64,000 nt of DNA from Cucumis sativus (taxonomy: Eukaryota > Streptophyta > Magnoliopsida > Cucurbitales > Cucurbitaceae), in contig NC_026659.2 of NCBI RefSeq assembly GCF_000004075.3, forward strand, positions 29,716,272 to 29,780,271. Reading direction: 5' to 3'. A program made the translations under genes and the position numbers. The notes beneath the pieces were generated by a model. That model was given only the letters and a program-made list of their open reading frames with translations. It did not search any database and had not been told where the DNA came from. Shown one piece after another: positions 1,890-62,607 of this stretch. Numbering within the stretch: position 1 is the first letter of the stretch; the number at the start of each line of letters is the position of its first letter.

Positions 1890-3772
1890 GTAAATAACAT
1901 AAATGTGAAGTATTGAAGAAAAGATTGAAAAGATTGTAGCATGTAAAAGAAAAGCAAAATAAAACTTGTATTTACATTCTTAATTAATAAAATAATTGTA
2001 TATAGGATCCTAACTTTGAGAAAAGAACATAAAAATGCAGAAAATTTAATATAATAAAAGTGGTTATATTCCTTGAAACAATGCATCTTTTCATATAGGA
2101 AAGTAAATTGAATGATATGTGAAAACAACAAAATAAAAACTGTTGGATATATTATTTATACTTACATTAACAAATTCAAAGTAGTGGTTAATTTACTTAA
2201 AATAGCACAATTTTGGCTAAATAAGTTAACAAAATCTCAGTAAGTGAATAATCTCATATATATATATATAAACGTATTTTATCTATCTTTAATGGTAGAA
2301 TATTTATTTACACATATGTTAATTATTTATAACCCACTACACTATTATTATATTTTACTTAAATGAGAGAGATTTTATTTCTCTTTTACAAGAATATCTC
2401 TCAACTAAATTTAGGTAATTTTTATTTTAAAAAAGGTATGGTTTTATAAAAAAAAAAAAAAAAAAACAAACAAACAAACAAAGAAAATAAATGTAATTTA
2501 TTTACCCCACACAAGGAAAGAGTAGTTTTTAACAAATTCCAAGCAAAATTTCTCTTTAAAAAACCCTAAAATTCTTCTCCTTCCATGTCAATACAATTTC
2601 TAAACTTTTTTTTAGCAATGGCGTTCAAGTCTCTCCAACTGCTCTTCCTTATTCTCGCTTCCATTGCATCTCATGTAATCTCCAAACACAATTCAATTTT
2701 ATCTCCTCGACGTCTGTATGGATGTCGTAAAGACGACAATGTAGAAGGAATCCATAGCATTAAAAAATACCTTCAACGTTATGGTTACTTATCACACAAC
2801 ACGAGTACTGATTCCAATATCATTGAACTTAACAGTAACAAGTTCGACGATTCCCTAGAATCTGCCATTAGATTATACCAGAAATGGTCTCACCTCAATG
2901 TAAGTGGGATTATCGACCAAGAAACATTAGATCAAATGTTCCAACCACGCTGTGGAGTACCAGATGTCTTCAAATTTAACTCAAGTAAGAATCTTGAGGA
3001 TGATCTTGAAATGTCATCTCATTACGCTTTATTCCCAAACAACGAAAAATGGCCAGATTACAAACGTCACCTAACCTACATGTTTACCAACAATTTTCCA
3101 ATTGACTTTGTGCCATCAATGACTGAGGCTATGGCTCGATGGGCAGCCCAGTCACTATTCACATTCTCAGAAGCTTCGGATGCCCAAAGTGCTGACATTA
3201 ATATCAGCTTTCAGGTAAAGGATCATGCAGATGGGTTTGCTTTTGATGGACCTGGAGGAGTTGTGGGTCATGCTTTTGCACCAACTGATGGGAGATTGCA
3301 CTTAGATGGCGATGATACTTGGTCGGCAGGGTTGGAAGAGAAGAAGGTTAATGTGATGAATGCGGCACTTCATGAGCTTGGGCATGTTCTTGGTCTTGCC
3401 CATAGCACCCTTCCACAAGCTGTCATGTGGCCCTATATTGAATCCAATGCTTTAAAGAACTTGAATGATGATGATATTGCTGGAATTCATGCTTTGTACC
3501 CTTAAAAACACTCGTCTTTAGTTAGATACACATCTTGGACTGTGTTCCTATTTAATATATGCAACTCACTAAAGAGATTTATTTTTCTAAGAAAATACAA
3601 TTTCTTTTAATATTTTGTTTCCTTTGTTAATGGAATTTGGATTGTAATTGAGTATTACTCTATCTCGTGCAGTTTTAAAATTAACACAGCTAAAAGTATG
3701 CTTTTTTCATATTTATCTTTCTCTCTGTGTCATGTGAAAGGCCACATTATTGTAGCGGGATGAAAATATAGT
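1890..3772 (+). repeat. Inverted segmental duplication, left copy
   Basis: This block, holding the first MMP gene with its upstream and downstream flanks, matches the reverse complement of about 48968-50925. The upstream match covers the stretch around the word for TTAATTAAGAATGTAAA. The downstream match ends near the shared GGCCACATTATTGTAGC(G)GG at about 3745 (reverse complement near 48990). The edges were placed by eye and may be off by tens of bases. Confidence 0.75.
2618..3505 (+). CDS. Matrix metalloproteinase, clade A copy 1
   Basis: This 295-residue secreted zinc endopeptidase (M10A, plant MMP) should cleave extracellular proteins in the apoplast after loss of its propeptide. Residues 1-22 form a signal peptide. 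The propeptide has the PG-binding-like repeat (about 33-108) and an intact cysteine switch PRCGVPD at 110-116. Structural-zinc ligands are His203, Asp205, His218 and His228. The active site HELGHVLGLAHS is at 252-263 and the Met-turn Met270. An upstream in-frame ATG at 2585 is rejected because the paralogues have untranslated leader there and start at the equivalent of 2618. There is no intron and no GPI-type tail. By hand count it differs from the gene at 49240-50127 at about 24 of 295 residues. Cys36 in the propeptide is an extra cysteine shared by clade A. Confidence 0.93.
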   Translation: MAFKSLQLLFLILASIASHVISKHNSILSPRRLYGCRKDDNVEGIHSIKKYLQRYGYLSHNTSTDSNIIELNSNKFDDSLESAIRLYQKWSHLNVSGIIDQETLDQMFQPRCGVPDVFKFNSSKNLEDDLEMSSHYALFPNNEKWPDYKRHLTYMFTNNFPIDFVPSMTEAMARWAAQSLFTFSEASDAQSADINISFQVKDHADGFAFDGPGGVVGHAFAPTDGRLHLDGDDTWSAGLEEKKVNVMNAALHELGHVLGLAHSTLPQAVMWPYIESNALKNLNDDDIAGIHALYP

Positions 3773-4079
3773 ACTGTATTGTATTAAAGCGGAGCAATTG
3801 AGTTATGTTCATATATATATATATTGTCACTTTTTAACAAGTTTTTTATTCAAAATTTTAAAAGTTGGGTTCAATATATACATAATTTTTCAACTTTATG
3901 TTGTTGTCTCACTTTTATCATTTTTCTTTATTCTAAATTTAGTGTTTTAGTAATGTAGCGTTAAAAACTAGTTGAACCATTATCCTTTTGTGAGTTTGAA
4001 AACAATTATGTAAAACTGCTATAAACAAAACCAAAATTTTCAAATATCTATTGGATTAAAATTAGTTAACTCTTCTATC
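3506..4079. other. 3' flank of clade A copy 1 and spacer
   Basis: Up to about 3772 this is duplicated 3' flank, with probable polyadenylation region. The rest, to about 4080, is AT-rich with no recognisable gene. Confidence 0.5.
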
Positions 4080-4400: not shown

Positions 4401-4429
4401 GTTAATTTTTTCAACAAAATACTTAGTAA

Positions 4430-5354: not shown

Positions 5355-5564
5355 ATGGCTTCTAAGTTATGTCTCCAACTCTTCCTACTTTTGGCCTTCG
5401 TTACACCTCATTTGACCTTGGCTCGTCTTCTTCACAACCACAAACCTTCTCCATTTCTATTTCCCAAGCATCTTATAGGGAGTAGTAAAAACGATAGCAT
5501 CGTGGAAGGAATTCATAAAGTCAAGGCTTACCTTCAACGTTTTACTTTTTTAGAAGTGAAGTAA
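5355..5564 (+). pseudogene. Truncated MMP, clade B (propeptide fragment only)
   Basis: The first 62 or so codons match the clade B genes at 10894 and 16661 almost exactly: the signal peptide MASKLCLQLFLLLAFVTPHL, then the start of the propeptide up to KVKAYLQRF. Homology stops near 5541 and the frame closes after a short unrelated tail, giving a 69-residue peptide. No cysteine switch, zinc site or Met-turn is present, so it cannot be a protease. The frame and promoter are clean, so a short secreted peptide is possible, but a 3'-truncated pseudogene is the simpler reading. About 0.4 kb of unrelated AT-rich DNA and then a solo LTR follow. Confidence 0.85.
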
Positions 5565-8007: not shown

Positions 8008-8236
8008 TTATCAACATAAAATATGTAAATATTATCGGAACCATACATTATTCCTCGTGCGTTAGAAAAAAAATATATGTAAAACTACTATAAACAAAAA
8101 AAAAAAAAAATTCAAATACCCATTTGATTAAAATTATCCTAGGATATTCTTAGATTTTAAAATTCAATAAATATGTACAAATATAAGATATAGATAATTT
8201 TCTCAACAATAATCGATAACATTTTGTCAATACTTA

Positions 8237-9989
8237 GGGTGCATTTGGGGGAAGGGTTGAGTTATGGAGGGTTAGAGTTATGATAAACCTAGTGTTATGA
8301 TAAACCTAAGATTATGATAAAATGTGTTTTGGAAAAGGGTTAAGGAAAAAGTGTTACGATAAGATGTGTTTGAGGGAAGGGTTAGGTGGGTAGGGTTATA
8401 GTAGTGTTATAATAAGATATGTTTGGGGAAGGGTTACGTGGGTAGTGTTATGAAATTTTTTATTTTTTATTTTTTTAAAATTTATATTATAGATCCAATA
8501 CACAAATTTCTATACTTAATTTATTCAATCATCTTAGTTTTCATAAAATAATTTGACTAAATTTCTTTAAATACAACGCTCATTTTCAACATTTTTTTTA
8601 GTAATCCTTACTTGCAGATAAATTTTTTTATAAAAAAAATCATATTCTAAATTTAATACATAAATTTTGTATATTTAATTTATCAAATTGTCATAGTTTT
8701 CGTAAAATAATTTACCTTGATTTCTTTAAATTCAATGCTCATTTTCAACCTTTGTGCAATTCTTTTTTAAAAAACCATATTCTAGATCAATTACACGAAT
8801 TTCGTATATTTAATTTACCAAATCGTCCTAGTTTTCGTAAAAAAATTCCTTAATTTCTTTAAATACGACGTTCATTTTCAATCTTTTTTAAGTAGTCGTT
8901 AGGTGCAAATAATTTTCTTTTTTTAATTCATATTCTAAATTCAATAGCACAAATTTCATTTATTTATTTTACCAAATTGTCCGAGATTTTGTAAAATAAG
9001 TTGTCTTGATTTATTTAACTACAACGTTCATTTTCAACATTTTGTAAGCAACGTTACGTTTCAATAAATTGGTTTTTATGAATGTGACATATGATCCATA
9101 AACATGTAAATTAAAGCAAATAACTATCCAAGTTACGAAGTCCTGAAAATAGAAAAGAACAATCAAGGCTTTTACCAACCCTAGTTTTGTTTTCTCGTGA
9201 AAAATTACAATAAATCTAGTTTTAGGTTTCTGTTCAATTTATTTTAGACTACTTTTAAAATACCAACTTTAATTTTTATTGTTTTTAACGGTGGTTTATA
9301 TACTTTCAAAATATTTATTTTAGTCATTCTGCAATAATGATTAGGTAAAAAATCATGAATCTACCATCTCTATAACAAAAGATTTGTTATGTTAATCTAA
9401 CAAAACTTAATTTAATAACCAAAATAACATTATGAAAGTGACGAAATATAGACCAATCACCTCTAGGTTTGTTGAAGTTACGACCCTCACTAATTTTTAA
9501 TTTAATCAAATAGTTTTTATAGTTCGTTAATTGTTGTAATCAATTTATGATAATTTGTTAAAATTGTACCATTTTTTTATTGAATTTATATTCTTTAGAT
9601 ATTTAAGCAAATTAACAAAATACAATAAAGTTGAGATTGATATCAAAATCTTAATTTCACATTAATTCTAACATAAAGTTGATTGAAGGTAATTAAATTA
9701 AAATTTTAATCGTGTAATTTACAATAAATTATCTAATTCAAGAGTAAAGGAAGAAATTAAAATTTTAATAATTTATATAGAAACTATAAATGAGAAAAAA
9801 AATAGTATTTAAAATAAATGAATTAATTATAAATGAAGAAGTGTTGAGAAAGGGTTGGAGAAGAATTAAGAAAGGGTTGAGGAGAGGGGTTAGGGGTAAA
9901 ATTAGGGTTATGATAATCCTTCCCCCAAACAAGGGTTCGGTTACCATAACCCAACCCTTCATAACCCAACCGCTCCCCCAAACATTCCC
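8237..9989. mobile_element. Harbinger-type non-autonomous DNA transposon (1.75 kb)
   Basis: The left end reads GGGTGCATTTGGGGGAAGGG. The right end, reverse complemented, reads GGGAATGTTTGGGGGAGCGG. Both ends are flanked by TTA (8234-8236 and 9990-9992), the target duplication typical of PIF/Harbinger elements. Sub-terminal stretches repeat GGGTTATGATAA-type words in opposite orientation at the two ends. No transposase frame is present. The interior holds about four diverged tandem units (separate entry). It lies between the solo LTR and the promoter block of the gene at 10894. Confidence 0.75.
8478..9055. repeat. About 150-bp tandem repeats inside the Harbinger-type element, 4 units
   Basis: Each unit runs from 'tattctaaattcaatacacaaattt' type sequence through 'ccaaatcgtcctagttttcg' to 'caacgttcattttcaac'. 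Units start near 8478, 8640, 8776 and 8926. The same unit reappears in the related element at 24812-25985. Confidence 0.7.
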
Positions 9990-10893: not shown

Positions 10894-11805
10894 ATGGCTT
10901 CTAAGCTATGTCTCCAACTCTGCCTACTTTTGGCCTTCATTACACCTCATTTGACCTCGGCTCGTCATCTTCACAACCGCAAACCTTCTCCATTTCTATT
11001 TCCCAAGCATCTCATAGGAAGTAGTAAAAACGATAGCATCGTGGAAGGAATTCATAAAGTCAAGGCTTACCTTCAACGTTACGGTTACTTAAGCAATGAA
11101 AATGAAAAAAAATTGAGTACAGATGCATTCGATGACGACTTGGAATCCGCCATTAAATCGTACCAAAAATTCTCCAACCTTAAGGTAAGCGGAGTCTTAG
11201 ACAGGGAGACCCTACAACAAATGTCGAGGCCTCGATGTGGGGTGAGAGACACTTATGTATCAGTAGGACAACAAGAACATGAGAATAAGAATACTAATAT
11301 TGAAATTGGTGGTTCACATTACACGTTCTACTACAACCACGTAACATGGCCAGCTGAGAGGAGGCACTTGTCGTACGGATTTATCCATGATTTCCCACCG
11401 CAGCACGTCGACACAGTGCGTCGAGCTTTCCAGACATGGGAAGATAATACGAAATTTTCGTTCTTCCTATCCCCGAGAGTACAAACAGCAGACATATTGG
11501 TAAGTTTTGAGAGAGGGGAACATGGAGATCATGAACCGTTTGATGGAGAAGGGGGAATATTGGCACACTCGTTGGGAGCGGTCGATGGGAGAGTGCACTT
11601 TGACGCAGATGATCGGTGGGAAGGGGATCCTATGGAACGGTATGACCTTGAGACTCTTGCATTGCATGAGATTGGACATGCGCTTGGGCTCGGCCATAGC
11701 AGTTCCTCATTGGCCATCATGTGGGCTTATATGTACAAAGGTTTCCCCAAGACTCGCTTGACTATTGACGATATTGAAGGCATTCGTGCTTTATATGGCT
11801 CTTAA
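10894..11805 (+). CDS. Matrix metalloproteinase, clade B
   Basis: A 303-residue, intronless plant MMP. The signal peptide is residues 1-23 (cleavage likely after TSA). Propeptide helices lie around 46-112, with cysteine switch PRCGVRD at 113-119, where Arg replaces the usual Pro of PRCGxPD. The zinc/calcium loop EHGDHEPFDGEGGILAH is at 209-225. The active site HEIGHALGLGHS is at 258-269, with Met-turn Met276, and the protein ends in a short ALYGS. It is about as long as typical plant MMPs without a GPI tail, so it should act as a soluble apoplastic endopeptidase. Its nearest relative is the gene at 16661, with which it shares promoter and 3' flank; the fragment at 5355 is a third sister. Confidence 0.93.
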   Translation: MASKLCLQLCLLLAFITPHLTSARHLHNRKPSPFLFPKHLIGSSKNDSIVEGIHKVKAYLQRYGYLSNENEKKLSTDAFDDDLESAIKSYQKFSNLKVSGVLDRETLQQMSRPRCGVRDTYVSVGQQEHENKNTNIEIGGSHYTFYYNHVTWPAERRHLSYGFIHDFPPQHVDTVRRAFQTWEDNTKFSFFLSPRVQTADILVSFERGEHGDHEPFDGEGGILAHSLGAVDGRVHFDADDRWEGDPMERYDLETLALHEIGHALGLGHSSSSLAIMWAYMYKGFPKTRLTIDDIEGIRALYGS

Positions 11806-16660: not shown

Positions 16661-17581
16661 ATGGCTGCTAAGTTATGTCTCCAACTCTTCCTACTTTTGG
16701 CCTTCGTTACACCTCATTTGACATCGGCTCGTCCTCTTCACAACCATAAATCATCTCGACTTCTATTTCCCGAGCATCTCATAGGAAGTAGTAAAAACGA
16801 TAGCATCGTGGAAGGAATTCATAAAGTCAAGGCTTACCTTCAACGTTACGGTTATTTCAGCAATGAAAATGAAAACAATTTGAGCACAGATGCATTCGAC
16901 GACGACTTAGAATCCGCCATTAAATCATACCAAAAATTCTCCAACCTTAAGGTAAGTGGAGTCTTAGACAGGGAGACACTACAACAAATGTCGAGGCCTC
17001 GATGTGGGGTGGCAGACAATTTCCAATCAGTAGCACAACAAGATGGTGAGAATAATAATACTACTGTTCAAATTGGTGGTTCACATTTCATGTTCTTCCC
17101 CGGCAAGGGAAAATGGCCATATAGAAAGTGGCACTTGACCTATGGATTTGTCCATAATTACCCAATGAAGCACGCCGCTGCAGTGGTTCGAGCTTTCGAT
17201 AAATGGGCAGCTAATTCGAAATTTACATTCTCCCTTGCCTGGAGAATACAAACAGCAGACATTTTATTAAGTTTTGAGAGAGGGGATCATGGAGATGGGA
17301 AACCGTTTGATGGAGAAGGGGGAATATTGGGACACGCGTTTGGGCCGATCGATGGGAGAGTGCATTTTGACGCAGATGAGCAGTGGGCCGAAATAGGTTC
17401 GCTTACGAACGAAAACTTTGATTTCGAGTCTGTGGCATTGCATGAGATAGGACATGCACTTGGTCTCGGCCATAGCATTTTTCCATCTGCCGTCATGTGG
17501 GCTAATATGGAGACTGGTGTCAACAAGACTGAATTGACTATTGATGATATTGAAGGCGTTCATGCTTTAAATGACCCTTAA
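16661..17581 (+). CDS. Matrix metalloproteinase, clade B
   Basis: A 306-residue intronless secreted MMP. The ATG at 16661 matches the starts of the two sister copies; an in-frame extension upstream to 16634 would begin at TTG and is rejected. The signal peptide is residues 1-23. The cysteine switch PRCGVAD is at 113-119 (Ala for Pro). The metal loop DHGDGKPFDGEGGILGH is at 209-224, active site HEIGHALGLGHS at 261-272 and Met-turn Met279. The C-terminus ends HALNDP, with Asn-Asp in place of the usual Tyr. Its catalytic residues are more canonical than those of the 10894 gene, which has His for Gly in the HGDG word. It should be an active apoplastic endopeptidase. Confidence 0.93.
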   Translation: MAAKLCLQLFLLLAFVTPHLTSARPLHNHKSSRLLFPEHLIGSSKNDSIVEGIHKVKAYLQRYGYFSNENENNLSTDAFDDDLESAIKSYQKFSNLKVSGVLDRETLQQMSRPRCGVADNFQSVAQQDGENNNTTVQIGGSHFMFFPGKGKWPYRKWHLTYGFVHNYPMKHAAAVVRAFDKWAANSKFTFSLAWRIQTADILLSFERGDHGDGKPFDGEGGILGHAFGPIDGRVHFDADEQWAEIGSLTNENFDFESVALHEIGHALGLGHSIFPSAVMWANMETGVNKTELTIDDIEGVHALNDP

Positions 17582-20722: not shown

Positions 20723-21610
20723 ATGGCTCTTCAATTCTCTCTTCAACTTTTCCTCCTTATTGCCTCCATTGCGCCTCATGTGATCACTGCACGTGTTCGT
20801 CACACCCACATATCCTCCCATCTTCAAGGAAGTCGTATAGGTAACAACATTGAAGGAATCCACAACGTCAAACTTTACCTCAAACGTTATGGTTACTTAA
20901 CCAATGTAGAGAGTACCAATTCTAACAACACATTCGACGTTCTCCTAGAGTCGGCTATTAAAACCTTCCAAAAATACCATAGCCTCAACGTGAGTGGTGT
21001 TATAGATGAGGAGACATTAACTCTGATGTCTCTACCACGATGCGGGATTCCAGATATCATGCACAATATTAATGTCATGGATAACAACGTTCAAATGAAT
21101 AGTAGCAGTTTTCATTCTCATTTCACATTCTTTCCGGATAACCTGAAATGGCCGGTATCAAAATACAACCTGAGGTACACATTTCTCGATGATTTTCCAA
21201 ACGACTTCAAAGAACCGGTGATGAACGCAATGGAACAATGGGCGTTGTTTAGCTTGTTCAGATTCTCAGAAGCCGTAGAAGCTCAAGAGGCTGACATCAC
21301 ATTTAACTTCGTGAGAGGGAACCATGGAGATGGCTATCCATTCGATGGAAAAGGAGGGGTTTTGGCACATGCTTTTGGGCCATTGGATGGGAGGGTGCAC
21401 TTTGATTGGGATGAGGATTGGGCAGATGGTTCCGTTGGTGGTTTCATAAATGTGGGGATGGTTGCTTTGCATGAGCTCGGGCATGTGCTCGGCCTTGCTC
21501 ACAGCACCATCAGAGACGCCATTATGTGGCCCTACATGGAAGCCGGTGAACAAACTAGGGGCTTACAGTTTGATGATATTGAAGGCATCCAAACTTTATA
21601 TGCTCCATGA
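20723..21610 (+). CDS. Matrix metalloproteinase, clade C
   Basis: A 295-residue intronless plant MMP and the only member of its clade here. The signal peptide is about residues 1-23. The fully canonical cysteine switch PRCGIPD is at 105-111. The metal loop NHGDGYPFDGKGGVLAH begins at residue 200. The active site HELGHVLGLAHS is at 250-261 and Met-turn Met268. The catalytic domain is closest to clade A (identical active-site dodecamer), while the short signal and linker resemble clade B. All catalytic and switch residues are intact, so a normal latent secreted protease is expected. Confidence 0.93.
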   Translation: MALQFSLQLFLLIASIAPHVITARVRHTHISSHLQGSRIGNNIEGIHNVKLYLKRYGYLTNVESTNSNNTFDVLLESAIKTFQKYHSLNVSGVIDEETLTLMSLPRCGIPDIMHNINVMDNNVQMNSSSFHSHFTFFPDNLKWPVSKYNLRYTFLDDFPNDFKEPVMNAMEQWALFSLFRFSEAVEAQEADITFNFVRGNHGDGYPFDGKGGVLAHAFGPLDGRVHFDWDEDWADGSVGGFINVGMVALHELGHVLGLAHSTIRDAIMWPYMEAGEQTRGLQFDDIEGIQTLYAP

Positions 21611-23778: not shown

Positions 23779-24720
23779 ATGGACTTCAAATCATCATCTG
23801 ATCTCCAAATCTTCCTACTTCTTCTTCTTGCCTCCATAGCTTTTCCTTTTATTTGGGCACGTGATCTTCATGATATCAAAAAATCCCAACTTCTATTTCC
23901 TCAACATCTTCTAGGAAGTAGTAAAGGTCACAACATAGAAGGAATCCATACCATCAAAATGCACCTCCAACGTTATGGTTACTTAAGCAAAAACTATAAC
24001 ATTATCGATACGAACGGTGCTTATAATAACGCCTTCGACGACCACCTAGAATCCGCCATAAAAAAATATCAAATGTTCTTCAAGCTTCCCAAGAGTGGAG
24101 TCTTAGACATGGAGACATTACACCAAATGTCACAAGCACGATGTTCGGTTCCCGACATATTCGAGAACAACGAGAACGAGACGAGCGTGACAACAAGTAA
24201 TCTCCATATAGGAAGTAAGTACACATTTTTTCCAGGGAGAGTGAAATGGCCAGATTCTCTTAATTACCGACTAACATACGCACTCGTTAACAATTTCCCG
24301 GAAGAGTTTAAGGAGTCGGTGAGAACGGCATTTGAGATATGGTACGGACGCAGTCGCTTCAATTTCACAGAAGTCAGTGAGAACGAAGGGGGGAATATAA
24401 GAATAAGCTTCGAGAGAGGAGTCCATGGCGATTATCATCCTTTCACTAAGAATTCAAAAACTTTGGCACATACGTTTGCACCAATCGATGGGAGATTTCA
24501 CTTCAATGCTGATAAACCTTTTTCAGTTGATGTTACATATAATGCGTATCATTTGAGGACTGTGGCATTGCATGAGCTTGGACATGCATTTGGGTTGGCT
24601 CATAGCCCAAGTGAAGATGCCATTATGTTTCCCACTATACCTACTAATCTTGAAAAGGATTTAGATATGGATGATATTGAAGGATTGTGGGAATTATATG
24701 ATGGATTTGGTGTTGCTTAA
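23779..24720 (+). CDS. MMP-like protein, clade D, variant cysteine switch
   Basis: A 313-residue secreted MMP homologue with signal peptide about 1-27. The cysteine switch reads ARCSVPD (120-126): the cysteine is kept but Pro and Gly of PRCG are replaced by Ala and Ser. The calcium loop, normally HGDGxPFDGxGG, reads HGDYHPFTKNSK before TLAH. The Asp-Gly and Gly-Gly residues are therefore gone, although the zinc-binding His and Asp remain. The active site HELGHAFGLAHS (265-276) and Met-turn Met283 (MFP) are intact. The C-terminus extends slightly (LYDGFGVA). It could be a protease with altered latency and metal stability. The frame is fully open and conserved with the gene at 28079, so it is not simply decayed. 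Confidence 0.9.
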   Translation: MDFKSSSDLQIFLLLLLASIAFPFIWARDLHDIKKSQLLFPQHLLGSSKGHNIEGIHTIKMHLQRYGYLSKNYNIIDTNGAYNNAFDDHLESAIKKYQMFFKLPKSGVLDMETLHQMSQARCSVPDIFENNENETSVTTSNLHIGSKYTFFPGRVKWPDSLNYRLTYALVNNFPEEFKESVRTAFEIWYGRSRFNFTEVSENEGGNIRISFERGVHGDYHPFTKNSKTLAHTFAPIDGRFHFNADKPFSVDVTYNAYHLRTVALHELGHAFGLAHSPSEDAIMFPTIPTNLEKDLDMDDIEGLWELYDGFGVA

Positions 24721-28078: not shown

Positions 28079-29020
28079 ATGGATTTCAAATCATTACATC
28101 TCCAACTATTCCTACTTCTTCTTACCTTCTTATTATTATTTCACCCTATTTCATCACGTGATCTCAATCACATCCATGGACCATCTCAATTTCTATTTCC
28201 CAAATATCTCATAGGAAGTCGTAAGGGTCACAACCTTGAAGGAACCCACACCATCAAAACGTACCTCCAACGTTACGGTTACTTAAGCAAAAGCTACAAC
28301 ATTATTGATACCAACGGCGTTTATAATAATGCCTACGATGAGCAGCTAGAATCCTCCATCAAAAAATATCAAAAGTTCTTCCAGCTTAACCAGAGTGGCA
28401 TTTTAGACACAGAGACGTTACGCCAAATGTCACAGTCAAGATGTTCAGTTCCCGACTTTTTCGAGAGCGATGACAACGAAACGAGCATGACAACGAGTAA
28501 TCTCCACATGGGAAGTAGGTTCAAATTTTTTCCGGGGAGACCGAAATGGCCGGATTCGAAGAATTACAGTCTTACATTCTCGTTCATTAATAATTTCCCA
28601 GGAATATTTAAGGGGGAAGTGGGGGACGCGTTTTTGGCATGGTACGAACGAAGCCGATTTTTCTTCACAGAAGTTCCCGAGGGCGAAGAGTCTGATATAA
28701 AAATAAGCTTTGAAGTAGGAGACCATGGAGATGGGCATCCTTTTCGAGTAGGAGTTTTGGCACATGCATTTACACCAACAGATGGAAGACTTCACTTCAA
28801 TGGAGATGAACCATTTTCATCTGAAGTTGCAGAGGGTAAGTATCATGTGAGAAGTGTGGCACTGCACGAGCTTGGACATTCACTTGGGTTGGCGCATACA
28901 GAAATTTTAGATGCCATTATGTATCCCACCCTACCTCCTAATTTTGCTAAGAGTATAAATAGCGATGATGTTAATGGACTTTGGGCATTGTATGATAATT
29001 TTCATATTGGTGGTCCATAA
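28079..29020 (+). CDS. MMP-like protein, clade D, variant cysteine switch
   Basis: A 313-residue sister of the protein at 23779. The ATG at 28079 is chosen because MDFKS matches the sister; an upstream in-frame extension begins at TTG. The signal peptide is about 1-27. The switch reads SRCSVPD (120-126). The calcium loop is shortened: HGDGHPF is followed directly by RVGVLAH, two residues fewer than PFDGxGGxLAH. The active site HELGHSLGLAHT (263-274) has Thr in place of the usual Ser after the third His. Met-turn is Met281 (MYP). Coding capacity is intact. Secreted localisation is likely; protease activity is probable but less certain than for the other clades. Confidence 0.9.
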   Translation: MDFKSLHLQLFLLLLTFLLLFHPISSRDLNHIHGPSQFLFPKYLIGSRKGHNLEGTHTIKTYLQRYGYLSKSYNIIDTNGVYNNAYDEQLESSIKKYQKFFQLNQSGILDTETLRQMSQSRCSVPDFFESDDNETSMTTSNLHMGSRFKFFPGRPKWPDSKNYSLTFSFINNFPGIFKGEVGDAFLAWYERSRFFFTEVPEGEESDIKISFEVGDHGDGHPFRVGVLAHAFTPTDGRLHFNGDEPFSSEVAEGKYHVRSVALHELGHSLGLAHTEILDAIMYPTLPPNFAKSINSDDVNGLWALYDNFHIGGP

Positions 29021-30794: not shown

Positions 30795-31023
30795 TTTGAG
30801 AGACTTCATTTTGATACTGATGAAGCTTGGTTCATTGGGTGCTGTTTCTGGTTATTTTGGTGCGGAAATTGTGGCTTTGCATGAGATTGAACATATTCTT
30901 GACCTTCAACGTAGCACTGTTGAAGGAGCTATGTTATGTTTCTGATTATACCTAATAGAGAGATACCAAGGGTTTGCATGATGATGAAAGTATTGCTAGA
31001 ATCCAAAGCCTCCATAGAGTGAC
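30795..31023 (+). pseudogene. MMP catalytic-domain remnant, clade E
   Basis: The words RLHFDTDEAW, then after a frameshift LGAVSGYF, IVALHEIEHILDLQRSTVEGAM, are followed by KGLHDDE-, I-A-I-type remnants and a final stop at 31023. They match the C-terminal third of the gene at 31768-32730. The zinc site is destroyed (HEIEHILDLQR instead of HEIGHILGLQH), and there is a frameshift and a stop. The 5' two thirds are missing. It lies tail to tail with its closest relative. (The longest motif quoted is broken in the DNA frame as described.). Confidence 0.8.
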
Positions 31024-31767: not shown

Positions 31768-32730
31768 TCAAACTCGATAAAGAGCCTTAATTCCAGCAAT
31801 ATCATCTCCATGCAAACCCTTAGTAACTCCCTCTGGTATACTTGGAAACATAATAGCCTCTTCAATAGTGCTATGTTGAAGCCCGAGAATATGTCCAATC
31901 TCATGCAAAGCTACAGTTTCCACATCAAAATAACCTGAAATAGCACCCACAGACCAAGCGTCATCACCATCAAAATGAAGCCTTCCATCCGTTGGTGCAT
32001 AAGCATGAGCTAAAACTCCTCCCACACCGTCAAATGGAGCGTTGTCTCCATGTTCGCCTCTTTCAAAGCTTATTTTGATATCAGCTTTTCTATAATCTGC
32101 AACATGTGAAAATTTGAAATGGGTATTCAAACTCCATTTTGAGAAAGCTCTTGACACTGGTTTTATTGCATCAATTGGGTAGTTTGGAAGAAATCCATAG
32201 CTTAAGTGGAGCTTTGAAGATGGCCATTTCAGGTTTCCTTCAAAGAAGGTAAAGTGAGAGACTTTGTGGAAATGAGTATGGCCATTATTTGTGAAATTTT
32301 GGTTTCTTTTTTTGGTTTTTTTGTTTTTGATTACATCTTGAACTCCACATCTAGGCATGGCTATTTGAGCAATGGTGTTGGAGTCCAAGATTCCTGAGGG
32401 CGCAAGATTGTGGTTTGTTTGGTATGTTTTAAGGGCAGATTCCAAGATATGATCAAAAGTGTCATCAAAGATGGGGTTGGAGTGTTTTTGGATATTGGTA
32501 GTAATGTAACCAAAACGTTGAAGGTATTTTTTTATTTGATGAATGCCTTGTTTTGTATCACCTAAATGACATCCTTGGAGATTCTTGAGAAACATTAAGG
32601 AATTGGATGAGTTCATGTTTTGAGAACTATGTTTCAAGATAATTGGAGATGATGTATTTGGATTAGGGAAGAGGGAAAGAAATAAAAGGGTGAAAGGGAA
32701 GATAATTTGAAGAGCTTTGGGAGAGGCCAT
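31768..32730 (-). CDS. Matrix metalloproteinase, clade E, intronless
   Basis: A 320-residue secreted MMP. The signal peptide is residues 1-27. A longer linker follows, then GCHLGDTKQGIH (53-64) at the start of the propeptide with an extra cysteine (Cys54). The cysteine switch PRCGVQD is at 126-132. A basic insert (KNKKTKKRNQ, about 135-144) precedes the catalytic domain and could be a protease-sensitive activation site. The metal loop is EHGDNAPFDGVGGVLAH, active site HEIGHILGLQHS 276-287 and Met-turn Met294 (MFP). There is no intron at HLSYG|FLP, where its two sister genes have one. Transcription should start from the TATAAATA at 32794-32787. Confidence 0.93.
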   Translation of the reverse strand: MASPKALQIIFPFTLLFLSLFPNPNTSSPIILKHSSQNMNSSNSLMFLKNLQGCHLGDTKQGIHQIKKYLQRFGYITTNIQKHSNPIFDDTFDHILESALKTYQTNHNLAPSGILDSNTIAQIAMPRCGVQDVIKNKKTKKRNQNFTNNGHTHFHKVSHFTFFEGNLKWPSSKLHLSYGFLPNYPIDAIKPVSRAFSKWSLNTHFKFSHVADYRKADIKISFERGEHGDNAPFDGVGGVLAHAYAPTDGRLHFDGDDAWSVGAISGYFDVETVALHEIGHILGLQHSTIEEAIMFPSIPEGVTKGLHGDDIAGIKALYRV

Positions 32731-38919: not shown

Positions 38920-39987
38920 TTAAAGAATGTTATTATACAAAGCCTTAATCCCTGCAATATCATCAACATGCAAACCCTTGGAAGCTCCTACGGGGACTTG
39001 TGGCCACATGATAGCCCCTTCAGTGGAGCTATGTTGAAGGCCAAGAAGATGTCCAATCTCATGCAATGCCACCGTCTCCAAATCAAAAGAATCTGAAACA
39101 ACACCATTCGCCCAAGACTCATCGGCATCGAGGTGGAACCGGCCATCCGACGGCGAAAAAGCATGAGCTACCACTCCTCCAACACCATCAAATGGATACC
39201 CATCTCCATGATCACCAGTTTCAAACCCTATTGTTATGTCTGAAGTTTGGTTGTCCAAAGCTTGGGAGAAAGTGAAGTGAGAGTTCGCCGCCCAAGTAGC
39301 AAAAGCTCGAGCTACCGGACTCACCGTTTCTGATGGAGTTCCTGGAAGAAAACCTGTTGAGAATATGAATATAAAAGATTATGCTCATATTAATACAATT
39401 GAACTTACTATAATCCACTAGCTCAAGCTTTTAAAATGATTATTATCGGCTGATAATTTACCATAAGTGAGATGAGATTTTGTAGCAGGCCACTTAGGGT
39501 TTCCGTCAAAGAAAGCGAAGTGAGAAACACTATGAAAGTGGCCAACTATTCCATGTTCAAGTTGCTTTCTTTTCTTGCTTGATCTCATCCAAGTATTGCC
39601 ATGGATGATATCTGCAACTCCGCATCGAGGCTTCGACATTTGAGCTATCGTCATAGCATCAAGAGTCCCTGTGACTTTGAGATTGTAATTCTTTTGGTAT
39701 GTTTTAATGGCAGTCTCTAGCAGCTCGTCAAACTCATCGTCATTATTTTCAGAATGAATTTGAGCATCCTCATTCAAGTAGCCAAATTGGTGAAGGTATT
39801 TCTTCAGTTGGTGGATGCCTTCAACTTTGTCACCCTTTTGGGATCCATAAAGTTGGTTCAGAAACACAAATTGTGATGATGCTTTTCCATGGGAGTGAGA
39901 ATGGTTTGATTGAGAAGATGATATTAAAGGGAAGAAAGTAAGAAGGAGAAGAGTGAAAGTGAAGAATGATAATTCTTCCAAGGCCAT
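38920..39987 (-). CDS. Matrix metalloproteinase, clade E, two exons
   Basis: Exon 1 is 39987-39462 and exon 2 is 39353-38920, joined across a 108-bp intron (39461-39354) with GT at 39461 and AG at 39354. Splicing falls in the Gly codon of SHLTYG|FLPGTP and gives 319 residues. The signal peptide is about 1-25. The propeptide switch PRCGVAD is at 120-126, followed by a basic stretch (RSSKKRKQ, 135-142). The metal loop is DHGDGYPFDGVGGVVAH, active site HEIGHLLGLQHS 273-284 and Met-turn in IMWP. The paralogue at 31768 reads straight through the junction, which confirms the splice. TATAAATA lies 92-85 bases upstream of the ATG. The expected product is a soluble secreted protease. Confidence 0.9.
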
Positions 39988-44975: not shown

Positions 44976-45029
44976 ATTGCAGGCTTTCTTATAAAACACC
45001 CAATTACCACGAAAATTTATTGATATGGA

Positions 45030-46410: not shown

Positions 46411-47693
46411 TCAATTAGCATTGTATAATGCATTAATGCCTGCAATGTCATCGGCATCCAAACCCTTGGTAGATCCTTCCATGATGCTTGGCCACATAAT
46501 AGCCCTTTCGATGGAGCTGTGATAGAGGCCGAGAAGGTGTCCGATCTCATGTAAAGCTATGGTCTCCAAGTCAAACGAATCAGCAATAGCACCGACGGCC
46601 CATGACTCGGCTGCGTCGAAATGTAATCTCCCATCTCTTGGTGCAAAACCATGAGCTATAACTCCTCGAACGCCATCGAAGGAATGGCCATCTCCATGGT
46701 CGCCAGTTTCAAAACTTATTTTGATGTCGGCTTTTTTGTATCGAGATGTTTGGGAGAAGTTGAAGTGAGTGTTTGCACCCCATGTCTTAAATGCTCGACC
46801 TATCGTAGCTACTGCCTTCGATGGGGTTCCCGGAAGAAATCCTGTTAAGAATGTGAATAAAAGATTTAGAATAAGTTTAAATTCAACAATCAAATTAACG
46901 TGCTATCAAAATAGAAAATCTAGCTTGTTATAATCCAACTTTAATGATAATTATTTATACCATCGTAAATTTGTGACATAAAAATTTTTAGTAAATTTTG
47001 AAAATTTTGATAACGAATTGTTTTTTTCACAGAAAAAAAGTCAGTTTAAGTTTTATTGCAGACTTTTCTCTCTCCTAATTTGTCTTTATTTTTCTGTCAT
47101 AAAAAGTCCAAATTGTTGTAATATAGATGAAAAATGCACGCAAAATTATATATGGATAGAAGATAAAATGTACCATAAGTGAGATGGGATTTGGAAGCAG
47201 GCCATTTAGGGTTTCCATCAAAGAAAGCATAGTGAGAAACACTATGAAAATGACCATTTATTTTTCTATGTTGATTCACCATTTTCTTCCCCGATTTCAT
47301 CCTCGTCTTTCCGTCGACAATATCGGCAAACCCACATCGAGGTCTCGACATAAGATCTAGCGTCTTGGCATTGATAGTACCTGTGGCCTTGAGATTGTAG
47401 TTGAGTTGATAAGTTTTAATGGCGGACTCTAAAACACCATCGAACTCATCATCATCAAAAGATTTAGAATAATTTTGAACATAGTTATTCAAATAGCCAA
47501 AATGTTGAAGATATTCCTTCACTTGGTGAATTCCTTCTACTTTGTCACCTTTCTTGCATCCATTGAGGTTCTTTAGAAACACCAATCCATTGGAAAGATG
47601 ACTCTTTGGATGAGAAGATGATATCAAAGGGAAGAGGACAATTACAAGAAAAAAAGAGGTCGTTAAGAATGATAATAATGTTTCGAATGCCAT
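46411..47693 (-). CDS. Matrix metalloproteinase, clade E, two exons
   Basis: Exon 1 is 47693-47174 and exon 2 is 46841-46411, separated by a 332-bp intron (47173-46842) at the same Gly codon as in the gene at 38920-39987. The spliced protein has 316 residues. The signal peptide is about 1-26; GCKKGDKVEGIH brings an extra propeptide cysteine (Cys46). The switch PRCGFAD is at 118-124, followed by a basic stretch (RMKSGKKM). The metal loop reads DHGDGHSFDGVRGVIAH, so one Gly of the GG pair is Arg, and HFDAAESW replaces the usual HFDADESW. The active site HEIGHLLGLYHS is 271-282 and Met-turn Met289. Zinc residues are intact, but calcium binding may be weaker. Confidence 0.88.
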
Positions 47694-48967: not shown

Positions 48968-50925
48968 TGAACTATATTTTCATCCGGCTACAATAATGTG
49001 GCCTTTCACATGACACGGGGAGAAAAAAGATAAATATGGAAAAATCATACATTTAGCTGTGTTAATTTTAAAAGTGCATAAAATAGAGTAATACTCACTT
49101 ACAATCCAAACCCCATTAACAAAGGAAACAAAATATTAAAAGAAATTGTATTTTCTTAGAAAAAGAAATCTCTTTAATAAGTTGCATATATTAAATAGAA
49201 ACACAATCCAAGATGCATGTCTAACTAAATGCGGTGTTTTTAAGGGTACAAAGCATGAAGTCCGGCAATATCATCATCATTCAAGTTCTTTAAAGCATTG
49301 GAATCAATATAGGGCCACATGACAGCTTGTGGAAGGGTGCTATGGGCAAGACCAAGAACATGTCCAAGCTCATGAAGTGCCACATTCATCACATTAAACT
49401 TGTTTTCTTCCAACCCTGCCGACCAACTATCGTCGCCATCTAAGTGCAATCTCCCATCAGTTGGTGCAAAAGCATGACCCACAACTCCTCCAGGTCCATC
49501 AAAAGCAGACCCATCTGCATGATCCTTTACCTGAAAGCTGATATTAATGTCAGCACTTTGGGCATCCGAAGCTTCTGAGAATGTGAATAGTGACTGGGCT
49601 GCCCATCGAGCCATAGCCTCAGTCACCGATGGCACAAAGTCGACTGGAAAATTGTTGGTAAACATGTAGGTTAGGTGGCGTTTGTAATCTGGCCATTTTT
49701 TGTTGTTTGGGAATAAAACGTAATGAGATGACATTTCAAGATCATCCTCAAGATTCTTACTTGAGTTAAATTTGAAGACATCTCGTATTCCACATCGTTG
49801 TTGGAACATTTGATCTAATGTTTCTTGGTCTAGAATCCCACTTACGTTGAGGTGAGACCATTTCTGGTATAATCTAATAGCAGATTCTAGGGAGTCGTCG
49901 AACTTGTTGCTGTTGAGTTCAATGATATTGGAATCAGTACTCGTGTTGTGTGATAAGTAACCATAACGTTGAAGGTATTTTTTAATGTTGTGGATTCCTT
50001 CTACGTTGTCGCCTTTACGACATCCATTGAGACGTCGAGGAGATAGAATTTGGTTGTTTATGGAGATTACGTGAGATGCAATCGAAGCGAGAACAAGGAA
50101 GAGCAGTTGGAGGGACTTGACCATCATTGCTAAGAAAAGTTTAGAAATTGTATTGATGTGGAAGGAAAGGAATTTTAGGGTTTTTTTAAGAGAAATTTTG
50201 CATGAAGAAGAAAAGGAAAAAAATTGAGCATTGCATGAAAATTGGAATTTGTTAAAACCTACTCTTTCCTTCCTTGGGATAAATAAATTACGTTTATTTT
50301 CTTTGTTTTTTTTTTTCTCTTTTTTTGGAAAGAAACCATACCTTTTTTTAAACAAAAACTTACCTTTTCTGTTAAATTTAGTTGAGAGATATTCTTTGTA
50401 AAAGAGATATAAAATATCTCATTTAATGAAAATATAACAATAGTGGGTTATAAATGATTAGGATATGTGTAAATTAAATAAATATTCTACCTTTTTTCCA
50501 CCATGAACTTATAAATTAAGATAGATAAAATACGTTGTTTTTTATATATAAGGTTATTCATTTATTGAGATTTTGTTTACTTATTTAGCCAAATTGTGCT
50601 ATATTAAGTAAATTAACCATATTTTGAATTTGTTAATGTATTGATAGATATAATGTATCCATCAAATTTTATTTTAATGTTTTCACACATCATTGAAGTT
50701 ACTTTCCTATACGAAAAGATGCACTTTTCAAGGAATATAACCACTTTTATTAGATTACATTTTCTTTTCTTTTATCAAAGTTAGGATTCTATATGGAATT
50801 CTTTTATTAATTAAGAATGTAAACACAACTTTTATTTTGTTTTTCTTTTATACAATAATAATGCTAGAATGTTTTGAATATGTTATAAAATACTTCACAT
50901 TTATGTTATTTACGTTACTAAGAAG
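48968..50925 (-). repeat. Inverted segmental duplication, right copy
   Basis: Reverse-complement partner of 1890-3772, holding the gene at 49240-50127 with promoter and 3' flank. Confidence 0.75.
49240..50127 (-). CDS. Matrix metalloproteinase, clade A copy 2
   Basis: A 295-residue intronless MMP starting MMVKSLQLLF; ATG at 50127, with a second ATG immediately after at 50124. The longer upstream open frame to 50355 would start at TTG and is leader in the paralogues. The signal peptide is 1-22, with propeptide Cys36. The cysteine switch is QRCGIRD (110-116): Gln replaces the first Pro and Arg the second. Metal-loop zinc ligands are at 203, 205, 218 and 228, active site HELGHVLGLAHS 252-263 and Met-turn Met270. 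It is closest to the plus-strand gene at 2618, not to its same-strand neighbours, as judged by sequence and by the shared TTAAAAA (not TATAAA) promoter word. Confidence 0.93.
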   Translation of the reverse strand: MMVKSLQLLFLVLASIASHVISINNQILSPRRLNGCRKGDNVEGIHNIKKYLQRYGYLSHNTSTDSNIIELNSNKFDDSLESAIRLYQKWSHLNVSGILDQETLDQMFQQRCGIRDVFKFNSSKNLEDDLEMSSHYVLFPNNKKWPDYKRHLTYMFTNNFPVDFVPSVTEAMARWAAQSLFTFSEASDAQSADINISFQVKDHADGSAFDGPGGVVGHAFAPTDGRLHLDGDDSWSAGLEENKFNVMNVALHELGHVLGLAHSTLPQAVMWPYIDSNALKNLNDDDIAGLHALYP

Positions 50926-51899: not shown

Positions 51900-52150
51900 T
51901 GGGTAGAAGAGGAAAGCAGATCAGAAGTCTGTTGAAGTTCCTCAGAGGAACTTGAGATCAGGTAGTGACTTTCGCCGTTTCCAATCGAACCCCATTGAGG
52001 TAGGTGAAGCTGCCAAAGAGAAACCGTTGTGCAACACTTGTGGAATGCGCCACTTGCATCGTTGTTTATTTGGGACTAGGATTTGCTTCAAGTGTAGGCA
52101 AGAGGGGCATACAACTTATCATTGTCCTTTGAGATATACTGGGGTTGGGT
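51900..52150 (+). mobile_element. Gypsy-type gag fragment (zinc knuckle)
   Basis: The translated words RSGSDFRRFQSNP, CNTCGMRH...C and CFKCRQEGHTTYHCP form the CCHC zinc knuckle of a Ty3/Gypsy gag. It is a short broken fossil with no LTR or pol around it. It is part of the tandem duplication, so the insertion predates that event. Confidence 0.75.
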
Positions 52151-53802: not shown

Positions 53803-54684
53803 TTAAGGGTACAAAGCATGAAGTCCCGCAATATCATCATCATTCAAGTTCTTTAAAGCATTGGATTCAATATAAGGCCACATGACAGCTTGTGGAAGGG
53901 TGCTATGGGCAAGACCAAGAACATGCCCAAGCTCATGAAGTGCCGCATTCATCACATTAACCTTCTTCTCTTCCAACCCTGCCGACCAACTATCGTCGCC
54001 ATCTAAGTGTAATCTTCCATCAATTGGTGCAAAAGCATGACCCACAACTCCTCCAGGTCCATCAAAAGGCATCCCATCTGCATGATCCTTTATTTGAAAG
54101 CTTATATTAATGTCAGCACTTTGGGCATCCGAAGCTTCTGAGAATGTGAATAGTGAATGGGCTGCCCATCGAGCCATAGCCTCAGTCACTGATGGCACAA
54201 AGTTAATTGGGAAATTGTTGGTAAATACGTAGGTTAGGTGGCGTTTGTAATCTGGCCATTTTAGGTTGCCTGGAAATAAAGCGTAATGAGATGACATTTC
54301 AAGATCATCCTCAAGATTCTTACTTGAGTTAAATTTGAAGACATCTCGTACGCCACATCGTGGTTGGAACATTTGATCTAATGTTTCTTGGTCTAGAATC
54401 CCACTTACGTTGAGGTGAGACCATTTCTGATATAATTTAATGGCAGATTCTAGGGAGTCGTCGAACTTGTTGCTGTTGAGTTCAATGATATGGGAATCAG
54501 TGTTGTGTGATAAGTAACCATAACGTTGAAGGTATTTTTTAATGTTGTGGATTCCTTCTACGTTGTCGCCTTTACGACATCCATAGAGACGTTGAGGAGA
54601 TAGAATTGGGTTGTGTTTGGAGGTTACGTGAGATGCAATGGTGACAAGAACAAGGAAGAGCAATCCGAGAGACTTGAACGTCAT
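53803..54684 (-). CDS. Matrix metalloproteinase, clade A copy 3
   Basis: A 293-residue intronless MMP starting MTFKSLGLLF at 54684. The signal peptide is 1-22. It lacks the two residues found in sisters at NTSTDS, giving NTDS. The cysteine switch PRCGVRD is at 108-114. The metal loop is KDHADGMPFDGPGGVVGH, active site HELGHVLGLAHS 250-261 and Met-turn Met268. A TATAAAA box at 54746-54740 lies about 60 bases upstream. It is the sister of the gene at 61720-62607 through the 4-kb tandem duplication. A secreted, activatable endopeptidase is expected. Confidence 0.93.
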   Translation of the reverse strand: MTFKSLGLLFLVLVTIASHVTSKHNPILSPQRLYGCRKGDNVEGIHNIKKYLQRYGYLSHNTDSHIIELNSNKFDDSLESAIKLYQKWSHLNVSGILDQETLDQMFQPRCGVRDVFKFNSSKNLEDDLEMSSHYALFPGNLKWPDYKRHLTYVFTNNFPINFVPSVTEAMARWAAHSLFTFSEASDAQSADINISFQIKDHADGMPFDGPGGVVGHAFAPIDGRLHLDGDDSWSAGLEEKKVNVMNAALHELGHVLGLAHSTLPQAVMWPYIESNALKNLNDDDIAGLHALYP

Positions 54685-60075: not shown

Positions 60076-61719
60076 GCAAAGCAGTCACAGGTGGAGAGTG
60101 ACACAACAGGGCAATGTTTTTGCCACCACCAAAGGGTAATACGAGAGACAAACCGACGAGTGACAAGAAGGACGCGTGACTGTCAGATGGGGACTTAGTT
60201 TTCTTTAAACAATTTGCTTCCACTTATGGTTTTAATTTTTTTTTATGTGATTGAACTGAATTTATAGATAGCTATTTTGTAAACAGTACTTTTAGAATTT
60301 TATTTGTTTGAAATTGGGCTCGAACAACGTTTTCCTTGATCGTTATGATTTCAAATAAATTTCACCATATTTTGTGTCAATCAATGTGTTTTGTTTAATT
60401 AAAATAATGACTTCGACTTAGATAGAAAAGTTGGGTTATTACACTAAAACGAATGTAATTATTAGATTCATTGAAAAAATCATCAAAATAGTCTGCAATT
60501 CTCTTGCCATTCTGCCAAAAAAATATTAAAACTATATGTCACTATATATTAAAGTTGTAAATAAGATTGGATATATATGTATACTAAATCACATAACAAA
60601 CCAATTATATCTTACAAATATATTAAAGTATATATTCATCATTTAAAATATTAATAGATACATTGAGAATGTGTCATTTACTAATGTTTTAGTAATATTT
60701 ACTATATAAACATATAATTTTATGTAGTTTATTACTTGTAGTTTACAGTATATTTAAAATATAAATGTTTATATGACTAACAACTTAATATTAATATATG
60801 ATAAACAAAATAACAGCAAAAAAAAACATTAACGAATGAAAAAATTCGGACGTCTTACTGTATATCATTGAATATGTGATATTGTATATATCAAGTGGTA
60901 TATATGTGTAAGGAATATAATGGAATAAACTGTTAGCAATAAAAAGTGAAATATATGTGTAAGCAATATCTAGGTAAAGTACGATGTAATGAACTTACGA
61001 ATGTTTGCGAGGAATTAAGAAAGACAACTAACCGAAAGTTTGAAGAAAACAAAATTTTGAGATAAAGTGAAGACCAAAGTTGAAGATCGATATTGAAAAC
61101 ACCAAAATTGATGGAAGAAAATACATAAATTGAATTATGAAGAAGTTGAAGTCGTCGTCGACATCGACACCAGAATAAATTTCACATATTCTTAACGTGG
61201 TGATGAAAATAATGATATAAAGTTATATTTAATTATTAATTTATTCTATATTAGAAAAGATTTCATTTTATATTAAATTAATAAACTATTTCCAAATAAT
61301 TTTCATAATTAAGTTACGTTAATTAATGGCATAAATAAGGAAGTTATCATTTAAAACATAAATTGAATATAATGTAAATAAGAAAATAATTTGAATTTAA
61401 TTTCGAAAACTTTATATAATTAATGATTATGATAAGATTATAATTGTCCAAAAAAAGCATTTGAAAACCTAATAAAGAAATAAATCTTAATTTAGAACAT
61501 CGTTCAAATTTACTAGTATACTGAGTTGTTTTATCTTTCGTTCTAAATGGTGCATAAAATAGAGTAATACTCGTATGAAAATCCAAACTTCATTAACAAA
61601 GGAAACAAAATATTTTAAAAGAAATTGTAATTATTTAGAAAGAGAAATTTCTTCAGTGAGTTGTCTATATTAAATAGGAACACAGTTCAAGATGAGTATC
61701 CAAGTAAATATGAGTGTTT
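60076..61719. other. Spacer within tandem copy 2
   Basis: AT-rich sequence matching 52151-53802 with small indels. No gene. Confidence 0.5.
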
Positions 61720-62607
61720 TTAAGGATACAAAGCATGAAGTCCGGCAATATCATCATCATTCAAGTTCTTTAAAGCATTGGATTCAATATACGGCCACAT
61801 GACAGCTTGTGGAAGGGTGCTATGGGCAAGACCAAGAACATGTCCAAGCTCATGAAGTGCCGCATTCATCACATTAACCTTTTTTTCTTCCAACCCTGCC
61901 GACCAACTATCGTCGCCATCTAAGTGCAATCTCCCATCAGTTGGTGCAAAAGCATGACCCACAATTCCTCCAGGTCCATCAAAAGGCAATCCATCTGCAT
62001 GATCCTTTATCTGAAAGCTTATATTAATGTCAGCACTTTGGGCATCCGAAGCTTCTGAGAATGTGAATAGTGACTGGCCTGCCCATCGAGCCATAGCCTC
62101 AGTCACTGATGGCACAAAGTCAATTGGGAAATTGTTGGTAAATACATAGGTTAGGTGGCGTTTGTAATCTGGCCATTGTGGGTTGCCTGGGAATAAAGCG
62201 TAATGAGATGACATTTCAAGATCATCCTCAAGATTCTTACTTGAGTTAAATTTGAAGACATCTCGTACTCCACATCGTGGTTTGAACATTTGATCTAATG
62301 TTTCTTGGTCTAGAACCCCACTTACGTTGAGGTGAGTCCATTTCTGATATAATTTAATGGCAGATTCTAGGGAATCGTCGAACTTGTTGCTATTGAGTTC
62401 AATGATATGGGAATCAATACTCATGTTGTGTGATAAGTAACCATAACGTTGAAGGTATTTTTTAATGTTACGTATTCCTTCTACGTTGTCGCCTTTACGA
62501 CATCCATAGAGACGTTGAGGAGATAGAATTGGGTTGTGTTTGGAGATTACGTGAGATGCAATGGAGACGAAAACAAGAAAGAGCAGTTGGAGAGACTTGA
62601 AAGCCAT
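61720..62607 (-). CDS. Matrix metalloproteinase, clade A copy 4
   Basis: A 295-residue intronless MMP starting MAFKSLQLLF at 62607. The in-frame upstream ATG at 62712 is in sequence that is leader or promoter in the paralogues, and downstream of it lies the TATA word, so it is rejected. The signal peptide is 1-22; propeptide Cys36. The cysteine switch PRCGVRD is at 110-116 after a Lys. The metal loop is KDHADGLPFDGPGGIVGH, active site HELGHVLGLAHS 252-263 and Met-turn Met270. All functional residues are intact. It is the last MMP of the cluster within the window. Confidence 0.93.
   Translation of the reverse strand: MAFKSLQLLFLVFVSIASHVISKHNPILSPQRLYGCRKGDNVEGIRNIKKYLQRYGYLSHNMSIDSHIIELNSNKFDDSLESAIKLYQKWTHLNVSGVLDQETLDQMFKPRCGVRDVFKFNSSKNLEDDLEMSSHYALFPGNPQWPDYKRHLTYVFTNNFPIDFVPSVTEAMARWAGQSLFTFSEASDAQSADINISFQIKDHADGLPFDGPGGIVGHAFAPTDGRLHLDGDDSWSAGLEEKKVNVMNAALHELGHVLGLAHSTLPQAVMWPYIESNALKNLNDDDIAGLHALYP

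Follow-up and report, generated by a model that had tools for sequence, protein, structure and literature searches.

A Tandem Array of Matrix Metalloproteinase Genes in Cucumber, With an Intron Shared by Three Neighbors and a Gene Pair That Differs Mainly Outside Its Prodomain

Introduction

Arabidopsis and tomato each have five matrix metalloproteinase (MMP) genes (PMC5568438; PMC4465618; statements on published work refer to excerpted text of the papers cited). For Arabidopsis, this number agrees with an earlier note on the DNA analyzed here, a 64,000-nt stretch of the cucumber (Cucumis sativus) genome (C5:29716272-29780271, hereafter the window), in which twelve intact and two broken MMP genes had been recognized. 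The window proved to hold most of an array of 14 intact MMP genes (g1 to g14). As in the MMPs of Arabidopsis and tomato, the predicted products are preproenzymes with a propeptide, a cysteine switch, a zinc site, and a Met-turn, and a Pfam search of the window genes revealed no hemopexin domain. The locus differs from these systems in that 14 genes, three of them with an intron, lie in a single array, versus five genes per genome.

At2-MMP and Sl3-MMP are said to end in a hydrophobic C-terminal tail (PMC4465618; PMC5568438), which the array proteins lack. In sugar beet, a tandem-duplicated MMP pair has been reported of which one member has a single intron, a situation that resembles the cucumber array but involves two genes, with loss of the first 220 bases from the intron-bearing copy (PMC4672520). 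Stronger immune defects against two fungi were reported for Arabidopsis MMP triple mutants (PMC8042752; PMC5568438), and MMPs of other plants have been described to act in immunity and senescence.

The evidence presented below makes it probable that secreted MMPs of family M10A form a long-lived tandem array at the cucumber locus, one that grew by local duplication and now comprises six lineages, with an intron gain in one of them and a divergence in enzyme specificity between g2 and g3. The original observation is real and the array is larger than first stated; the family is a known one, and the size of the array is unusual. Its interest is raised by two features, the intron shared by g8, g9, and g14 and the divergence of the g2 and g3 catalytic domains.

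Results and Discussion

Extent and Reality of the Array

The twelve intact genes and two broken copies (pA and pB; Table 1) of the earlier note were all recovered in the window, the intact ones as ten single open frames and the two-exon genes g8 and g9. Peptidase_M10 (Pfam) scored above cut-off in all twelve, with g8 and g9 scored exon by exon, at E-values of 1e-32 to 3e-45, which excludes a chance match; the propeptide family PG_binding_1 (Pfam) was likewise found in all twelve. To the right of the window, the array continues with g13 (C5:29781336) and g14 (about C5:29784683), both intact, so that g1 to g14 span approximately 67 kb. Genes g1 to g6 and both broken copies lie on the plus strand and g7 to g14 on the minus strand. 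Across the genome (226.6 Mb, 88 contigs), a Pfam search yielded at least 20 MMP matches. Six of these lie outside the array: the pair C1a/C1b on C1, C3a on C3, and C5p, C5q, and C5r, which are distant on C5. Protein searches with g7, g5, and g11 as queries revealed no additional MMP gene in the genome. In a 134-kb region, a profile search gave no convincing MMP fragment beyond the genes, pA, and pB; four further weak matches (E 1.1 to 3.2) were regarded as chance. No paper on this MMP array was found in a literature search limited to open-licence papers.

Repeated or misjoined contigs could simulate such an array, and the near-identity of the g10 and g13 blocks (98.0% over 2571 columns; proteins 99.3% identical) would fit this explanation. 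However, the closest array proteins other than this pair differ by approximately 6–7%, aligned copies are 63–98% alike in DNA, the window contains no N, and the likely source is a long-read assembly (PacBio and Hi-C) of inbred line 9930 (PMC6582320). An assembly repeat was rejected as cause of the array on the divergence between copies, and an artefact of this kind is hardly credible.

Protein Anatomy

The zinc motif HExxHxxGxxH and the Met-turn were kept in all 14 array genes. The cysteine switch was exactly PRCGxxD in ten of them (nine of the twelve window genes), with the variants QRCG in g10 and g13 and RCS in g5 and g6; RC and D were kept throughout. A hydrophobic N-terminal stretch occurred in all 14, as judged by hydropathy only. 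The earlier note had ascribed a signal peptide, a cysteine switch, and a zinc site to each of the twelve window genes: this held for the zinc site, whereas the exact switch was limited to nine genes and the signal peptides are predictions from hydropathy.

A predicted structure of the g3 catalytic domain (predicted local distance difference test, pLDDT, 80.1) matched solved MMP catalytic domains (E 1e-14), including human MMP-8, MMP-3, and MMP-1 and bacterial karilysin, with 36–42% identity among the 50 matches listed. A structure model of the whole of g2 was poor (pLDDT 57.6) and was discarded. Many human MMPs have TIMP partners and hemopexin domains, which are not known from plants.

C-terminal tails of the array genes, C5r, and the C1 pair had a hydropathy of at most 1.12, that is, no hydrophobic tail, and those of C5p, C5q, and C3a were hydrophobic (1.85–3.13). 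Since the array enzymes have no such tail, they would probably be diffusible in the apoplast, with the tailed enzymes possibly held at the membrane. C3a itself (C3:6621892-6622380, minus strand; 268 aa) combines a signal-like N-terminus with a catalytic domain and is without propeptide or cysteine switch, neither of which was found in the surrounding 9 kb. In g5, the loop between two residues that we take to be structural-zinc ligands reads HGDYHPFTKNSKTLAH; most relatives are close to HGDGxPFDGxGGxLAH, and the alignment is unsure there. At the position LxGC of the propeptide, a cysteine was found in eight of the 14 array genes and a serine in g2 to g6 and g8. An extra propeptide cysteine has been described for At2-MMP (PMC5568438), and our guess is that the two are the same residue.

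Lineages and Duplication History

A tree of the 20 MMP genes of this genome, built from 321 of 420 columns and with good support for 9 of its 17 inner branches, divided the array into six lineages: g7; g8, g9, and g14; g2 and g3, to which pA belongs by DNA; g4; g5 and g6; and g1 and g10 to g13 together with C5r. Every lineage has a member in the window, in line with the at least five subclades noted before. The 14 array genes and C5r were placed on one side of a branch (support 85/84), apart from the C1 pair, which adjoins them. The copies thus form locus-specific groups, with pairs and blocks that match by position, which bears out the local expansion proposed before, in a protease family that is probably secreted.

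Duplicated blocks, 86–98% identical, reach beyond the coding parts. Besides g10/g13, they include the blocks of g11 and g12 (90.5% alike over 4123 columns) and those of g1 and g10, which are inverted relative to each other (86.3% over 1978 columns). Near the point where the gene strand turns, pB is an inverted remnant that resembles the 3' part of g7 (81% over 202 columns). From the g1/g10 and pB/g7 links only, the array looks as if it grew partly by inverted duplication. C5r (C5:22009593-22010477) is situated 7.7 Mb from the array. Its protein is 94% like g11, and separate segments totaling approximately 3 kb resemble array DNA; an origin within the array followed by relocation is therefore most likely.

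Silent divergence (Nei–Gojobori method, NG86) was 0.01–0.19 within the g1 lineage and ranged from 0.18 (C1 pair) to 2.0 in the other pairs compared. One lineage is therefore young, and most others look older. Tests for gene conversion in the g1 group gave permutation p-values of 0.02–0.05 in 4 of 15 pairs, which was taken as no clear evidence; silent divergence per site (dS) was lower in the 3' part for g1/g10 and g1/g11 (p = 0.006 each), so that some conversion may have occurred in this group.

An Intron Shared by g8, g9, and g14

Gene structure was intronless in 10 of the 12 window genes and 11 of the 14 array genes. The other three, g8, g9, and g14, each contain an AT-rich intron with GT..AG ends, of 108 (g8), 332 (g9), and 546 (g14) bases; all three introns are in phase 1 and split the same codon, that of the Gly in LTYG|F. 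The remaining 17 MMP genes of the genome are single open frames. The three genes form a clade (support 99/95) that pairs with the intronless g7 (84/85). Both exons continue in frame and the ratio of amino-acid-changing to silent divergence (omega) of the clade plus g7 was 0.25, which indicated that the intron-bearing genes are not simply broken; their introns are predicted to be spliced. The introns are too diverged from one another for a good alignment. A DNA search that skipped very common words found no other copy of the g9 and g14 introns in the genome, and no origin of the g8 intron was found in the 134-kb region, to which its search was confined.

A single gain in the ancestor of g8, g9, and g14 would explain this distribution. 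Intron gains are rare in general, which counts in favor of the alternative, an ancestral intron of plant MMPs with losses outside this clade rather than a gain within it. Also on that side is the sugar beet MMP with a single intron (PMC4672520), a report that, in addition, means that the cucumber introns are not the first in a plant MMP. However, judging from reported exon sizes (PMC4672520), the intron of the sugar beet gene seems to occupy another position, and plant MMP genes have been called intronless (PMC5568438; PMC4465618), one paper naming cucumber among the species and PMC4465618 describing five species. On the present tree, moreover, an ancestral intron needs at least four losses versus one gain, and it is very improbable. 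An intron common to three neighbors beside intronless sisters offers a small, well-bracketed case for studies of intron origin.

Uneven Divergence of g2 and g3

Amino-acid-changing divergence (dN) between g2 and g3 was 0.027 in the prodomain vs. 0.281 in the linker and catalytic part, with corresponding dS values of 0.151 and 0.220. When the N-terminus was counted with the prodomain, the two parts differed in amino-acid-changing differences (p = 7.5e-12) but not in silent ones (p = 0.44). Because of the latter result, gene conversion was not supported as the origin of the like prodomains. In the catalytic domain, 72 of 167 positions differed, 3 of these being gaps; by simple majority of relatives, the derived state was scored in g2 at 32 positions and in g3 at 21, with 19 unclear. 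No difference occurred in the segment LHEIGHALGLGHS, and the metal ligands were kept. Some differences fell in the loop after the Met-turn, which presumably shapes the specificity pocket in MMPs, but they were not concentrated there.

Pairwise omega of g2 and g3 was 0.98 for the whole gene, 1.37 for the linker and catalytic part, and 0.38 for the N-terminal part and prodomain. The joint branch omega was 1.18–1.39, against a background of 0.19–0.27 (p = 6e-6 to 9e-10 in comparison with a single ratio), and 1.18–1.23 with gap-filtered alignments; in the prodomain, the joint value was about 0.1–0.3. Single-branch estimates for the catalytic part of g2 or g3 alone ranged from about 3 to the upper bound of the search, near 2981, and were unreliable because the outgroups are too distant to place silent changes, and joint values were used instead; with the same caution, g2 alone tested against omega 1 gave p = 0.004 to 0.08. 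In a branch-site test of the pair (184 codons), twice the log-likelihood difference was 7.13 (p = 0.0076) and none of 95 null simulations was as high. The pair had been picked after the omega table was seen, and this p-value would not survive correction for eight branch-site tests. We interpret these data as a functional divergence of one pair, possibly under positive selection, with a predicted change in specificity. Fourteen probably diffusible MMPs, one pair of which differs almost only outside the prodomain, provide a direct place to look.

Selection Across the Array

As estimated from codon comparisons, selection on the array is mainly purifying: whole-gene pairwise omega was 0.28–0.67 in seven of eight pairs, g2/g3 being the exception. 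Branch-site and site models were run with our own script rather than a standard package, with branch lengths fixed up to scale in the series of eight branch-site tests and in the site models. Array-wide positive selection was rejected, since the site models (M1a/M2a and M8a/M8) were non-significant in four of four sets (p = 0.065 or more). Five of the eight branch-site tests gave p < 0.05 (g2, 0.0046; g3, 0.040; both, 0.0099; g5, 9.6e-5; g5 and g6, 0.0052), and no signal was obtained in the other three (g2 prodomain, g6, and g7; p > 0.3). The g5 value was obtained with fixed branch lengths and without simulation, and several of its sites fall in the unsurely aligned loop. The suggestion of selection on apoplastic proteolysis in the earlier note is thus weakly supported, by branch-level signals of g2/g3 and g5 only, identified post hoc, against null site models.

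Adaptive diversification would mean selection for varied apoplastic proteolysis, with proteins or inhibitors of pathogens as conceivable targets and g2/g3 and g5 as the clearest examples. The contrast in omega between the two parts of g2/g3, their joint branch omega relative to background, the test of g2 alone (subject to the caution on single branches), the branch-site results for the pair and for g5, and the many differing loop positions around an unchanged zinc-site segment all agree with it. The null site models, the post hoc choice of pairs, the three branch-site tests without signal, the location of most g5 sites in the loop of least sure alignment, and the decrease of the joint g2/g3 omega upon gap filtering speak against it, and we regard it as rather unlikely. 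Still less likely is an arms-race locus in which pathogen inhibitors or substrates drove a remodeling of the g2 and g3 catalytic surfaces by positive selection, with zinc site and prodomain fixed, together with a de novo intron gain in g8, g9, and g14.

Under neutral birth and death, unequal crossing-over would make and break copies of no special benefit, and fast-evolving copies would be en route to loss. The two broken copies, the near-identical recent blocks, the strayed C5r, and the whole-gene omega of g2/g3 are compatible with such a process. However, the zinc site is kept in all 14 intact copies, omega is low in seven of eight pairs, and a decaying gene should lose prodomain constraint, in contrast to the low joint prodomain omega of g2/g3. 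As a general account of the array, neutral turnover is a tentative possibility, on the doubtful side.

Proposed Function of the Array

In the preferred reading, a long-lived array of secreted MMPs, each gene would encode a preproenzyme that is exported to the cell exterior by its signal peptide. The switch cysteine of the propeptide would hold the catalytic zinc until propeptide removal, upon which the HExGHxxGLxH zinc site and Met-turn would cleave proteins. Six lineages would be maintained mostly by purifying selection; that of g1, g10 to g13, and the relocated C5r would have multiplied recently, partly by inverted copying. A single gain in the common ancestor of g8, g9, and g14 would account for the intron, which would be removed by splicing, and g2 and g3 would be diverging in enzyme specificity with the activation part kept. 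Several points weigh against this account. Secretion, splicing, activation, and activity are all predictions read from DNA alone, and the support for grouping the array with C5r (85/84) is not strong. The g10/g12 omega of 0.67 was not significantly below 1 (p = 0.21). Finally, the joint g2/g3 omega was not significantly above 1 (p = 0.19 to 0.60), so that relaxed catalytic constraint may account for it.

A cucumber MMP, Cs1-MMP, was reportedly described by Delorme in 2000; that g7 (320 aa) is this enzyme is an assumption of ours, and a guess only. Cs1-MMP has been tied to cotyledon senescence and cell death (cited via PMC4465618). By analogy with such enzymes, the array would most likely supply diffusible proteases for roles in immunity or senescence; the same analogy suggests participation in cell death, senescence, or defense, and a role in defense or development is plausible.

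Table 1. MMP genes, broken copies, and predicted introns in the window (window coordinates).
Feature	Position	Strand	Description
g1	2618..3505	+	MMP, 295 aa; ATG at 2585 alternative; g10–g13 lineage, inverted
pA	5355..5552	+	Broken MMP, g2/g3 lineage; only first 66 residues; DNA likeness from about 5210
g2	10894..11805	+	MMP, 303 aa; strong divergence from g3 in catalytic domain
g3	16661..17581	+	MMP, 306 aa
g4	20723..21610	+	MMP, 295 aa; sole member of lineage
g5	23779..24720	+	MMP, 313 aa; switch ARCSVPD; altered loop preceding structural-zinc histidine
g6	28079..29020	+	MMP, 313 aa; switch SRCSVPD; ATG at 28001 alternative
pB	30801..31002	+	Broken MMP; zinc-site region spread over 2 or more frames; weak further pieces from 30659
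g7	31768..32730	-	MMP, 320 aa; intronless sister of intron-bearing genes
g8	38920..39987	-	MMP, 319 aa; exons 39987-39462, 39353-38920
g8 intron	39354..39461	-	108 bases, GT..AG, phase 1; predicted
g9	46411..47693	-	MMP, 316 aa; exons 47693-47174, 46841-46411
g9 intron	46842..47173	-	332 bases; position and phase as g8; predicted
g10	49240..50127	-	MMP, 295 aa; switch QRCGIRD; g13 (outside window) is a 98% DNA copy over 2.57 kb
g11	53803..54684	-	MMP, 293 aa
g12	61720..62607	-	MMP, 295 aa; ATG at 62712 alternative; 4.1-kb block 90.5% like g11 block

Genomic Setting

The array is flanked on the left by a CREG-like gene approximately 1 kb outside the window and on the right by an ABC transporter gene at about window position 74.8 kb. 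Three non-MMP frames within the array, the only ones tried there, were put to Pfam; two were without family and the third resembled a zinc knuckle, weakly and below cut-off. At the left edge of the window, two frames matched no Pfam family. The window gave no Rfam match, and no tRNA was detected in it by a scan with the bacterial code.

A possible retroelement remnant occurs at 51907-52149 and at about 59.8–60.2 kb, within the duplicated block of g11 and g12; the weak zinc-knuckle match, below cut-off, is that at 51907-52149, and only this first place was put to Pfam. Another non-MMP repeated element, itself tandem, is common to window positions 8402-9077 and 24928-25680.

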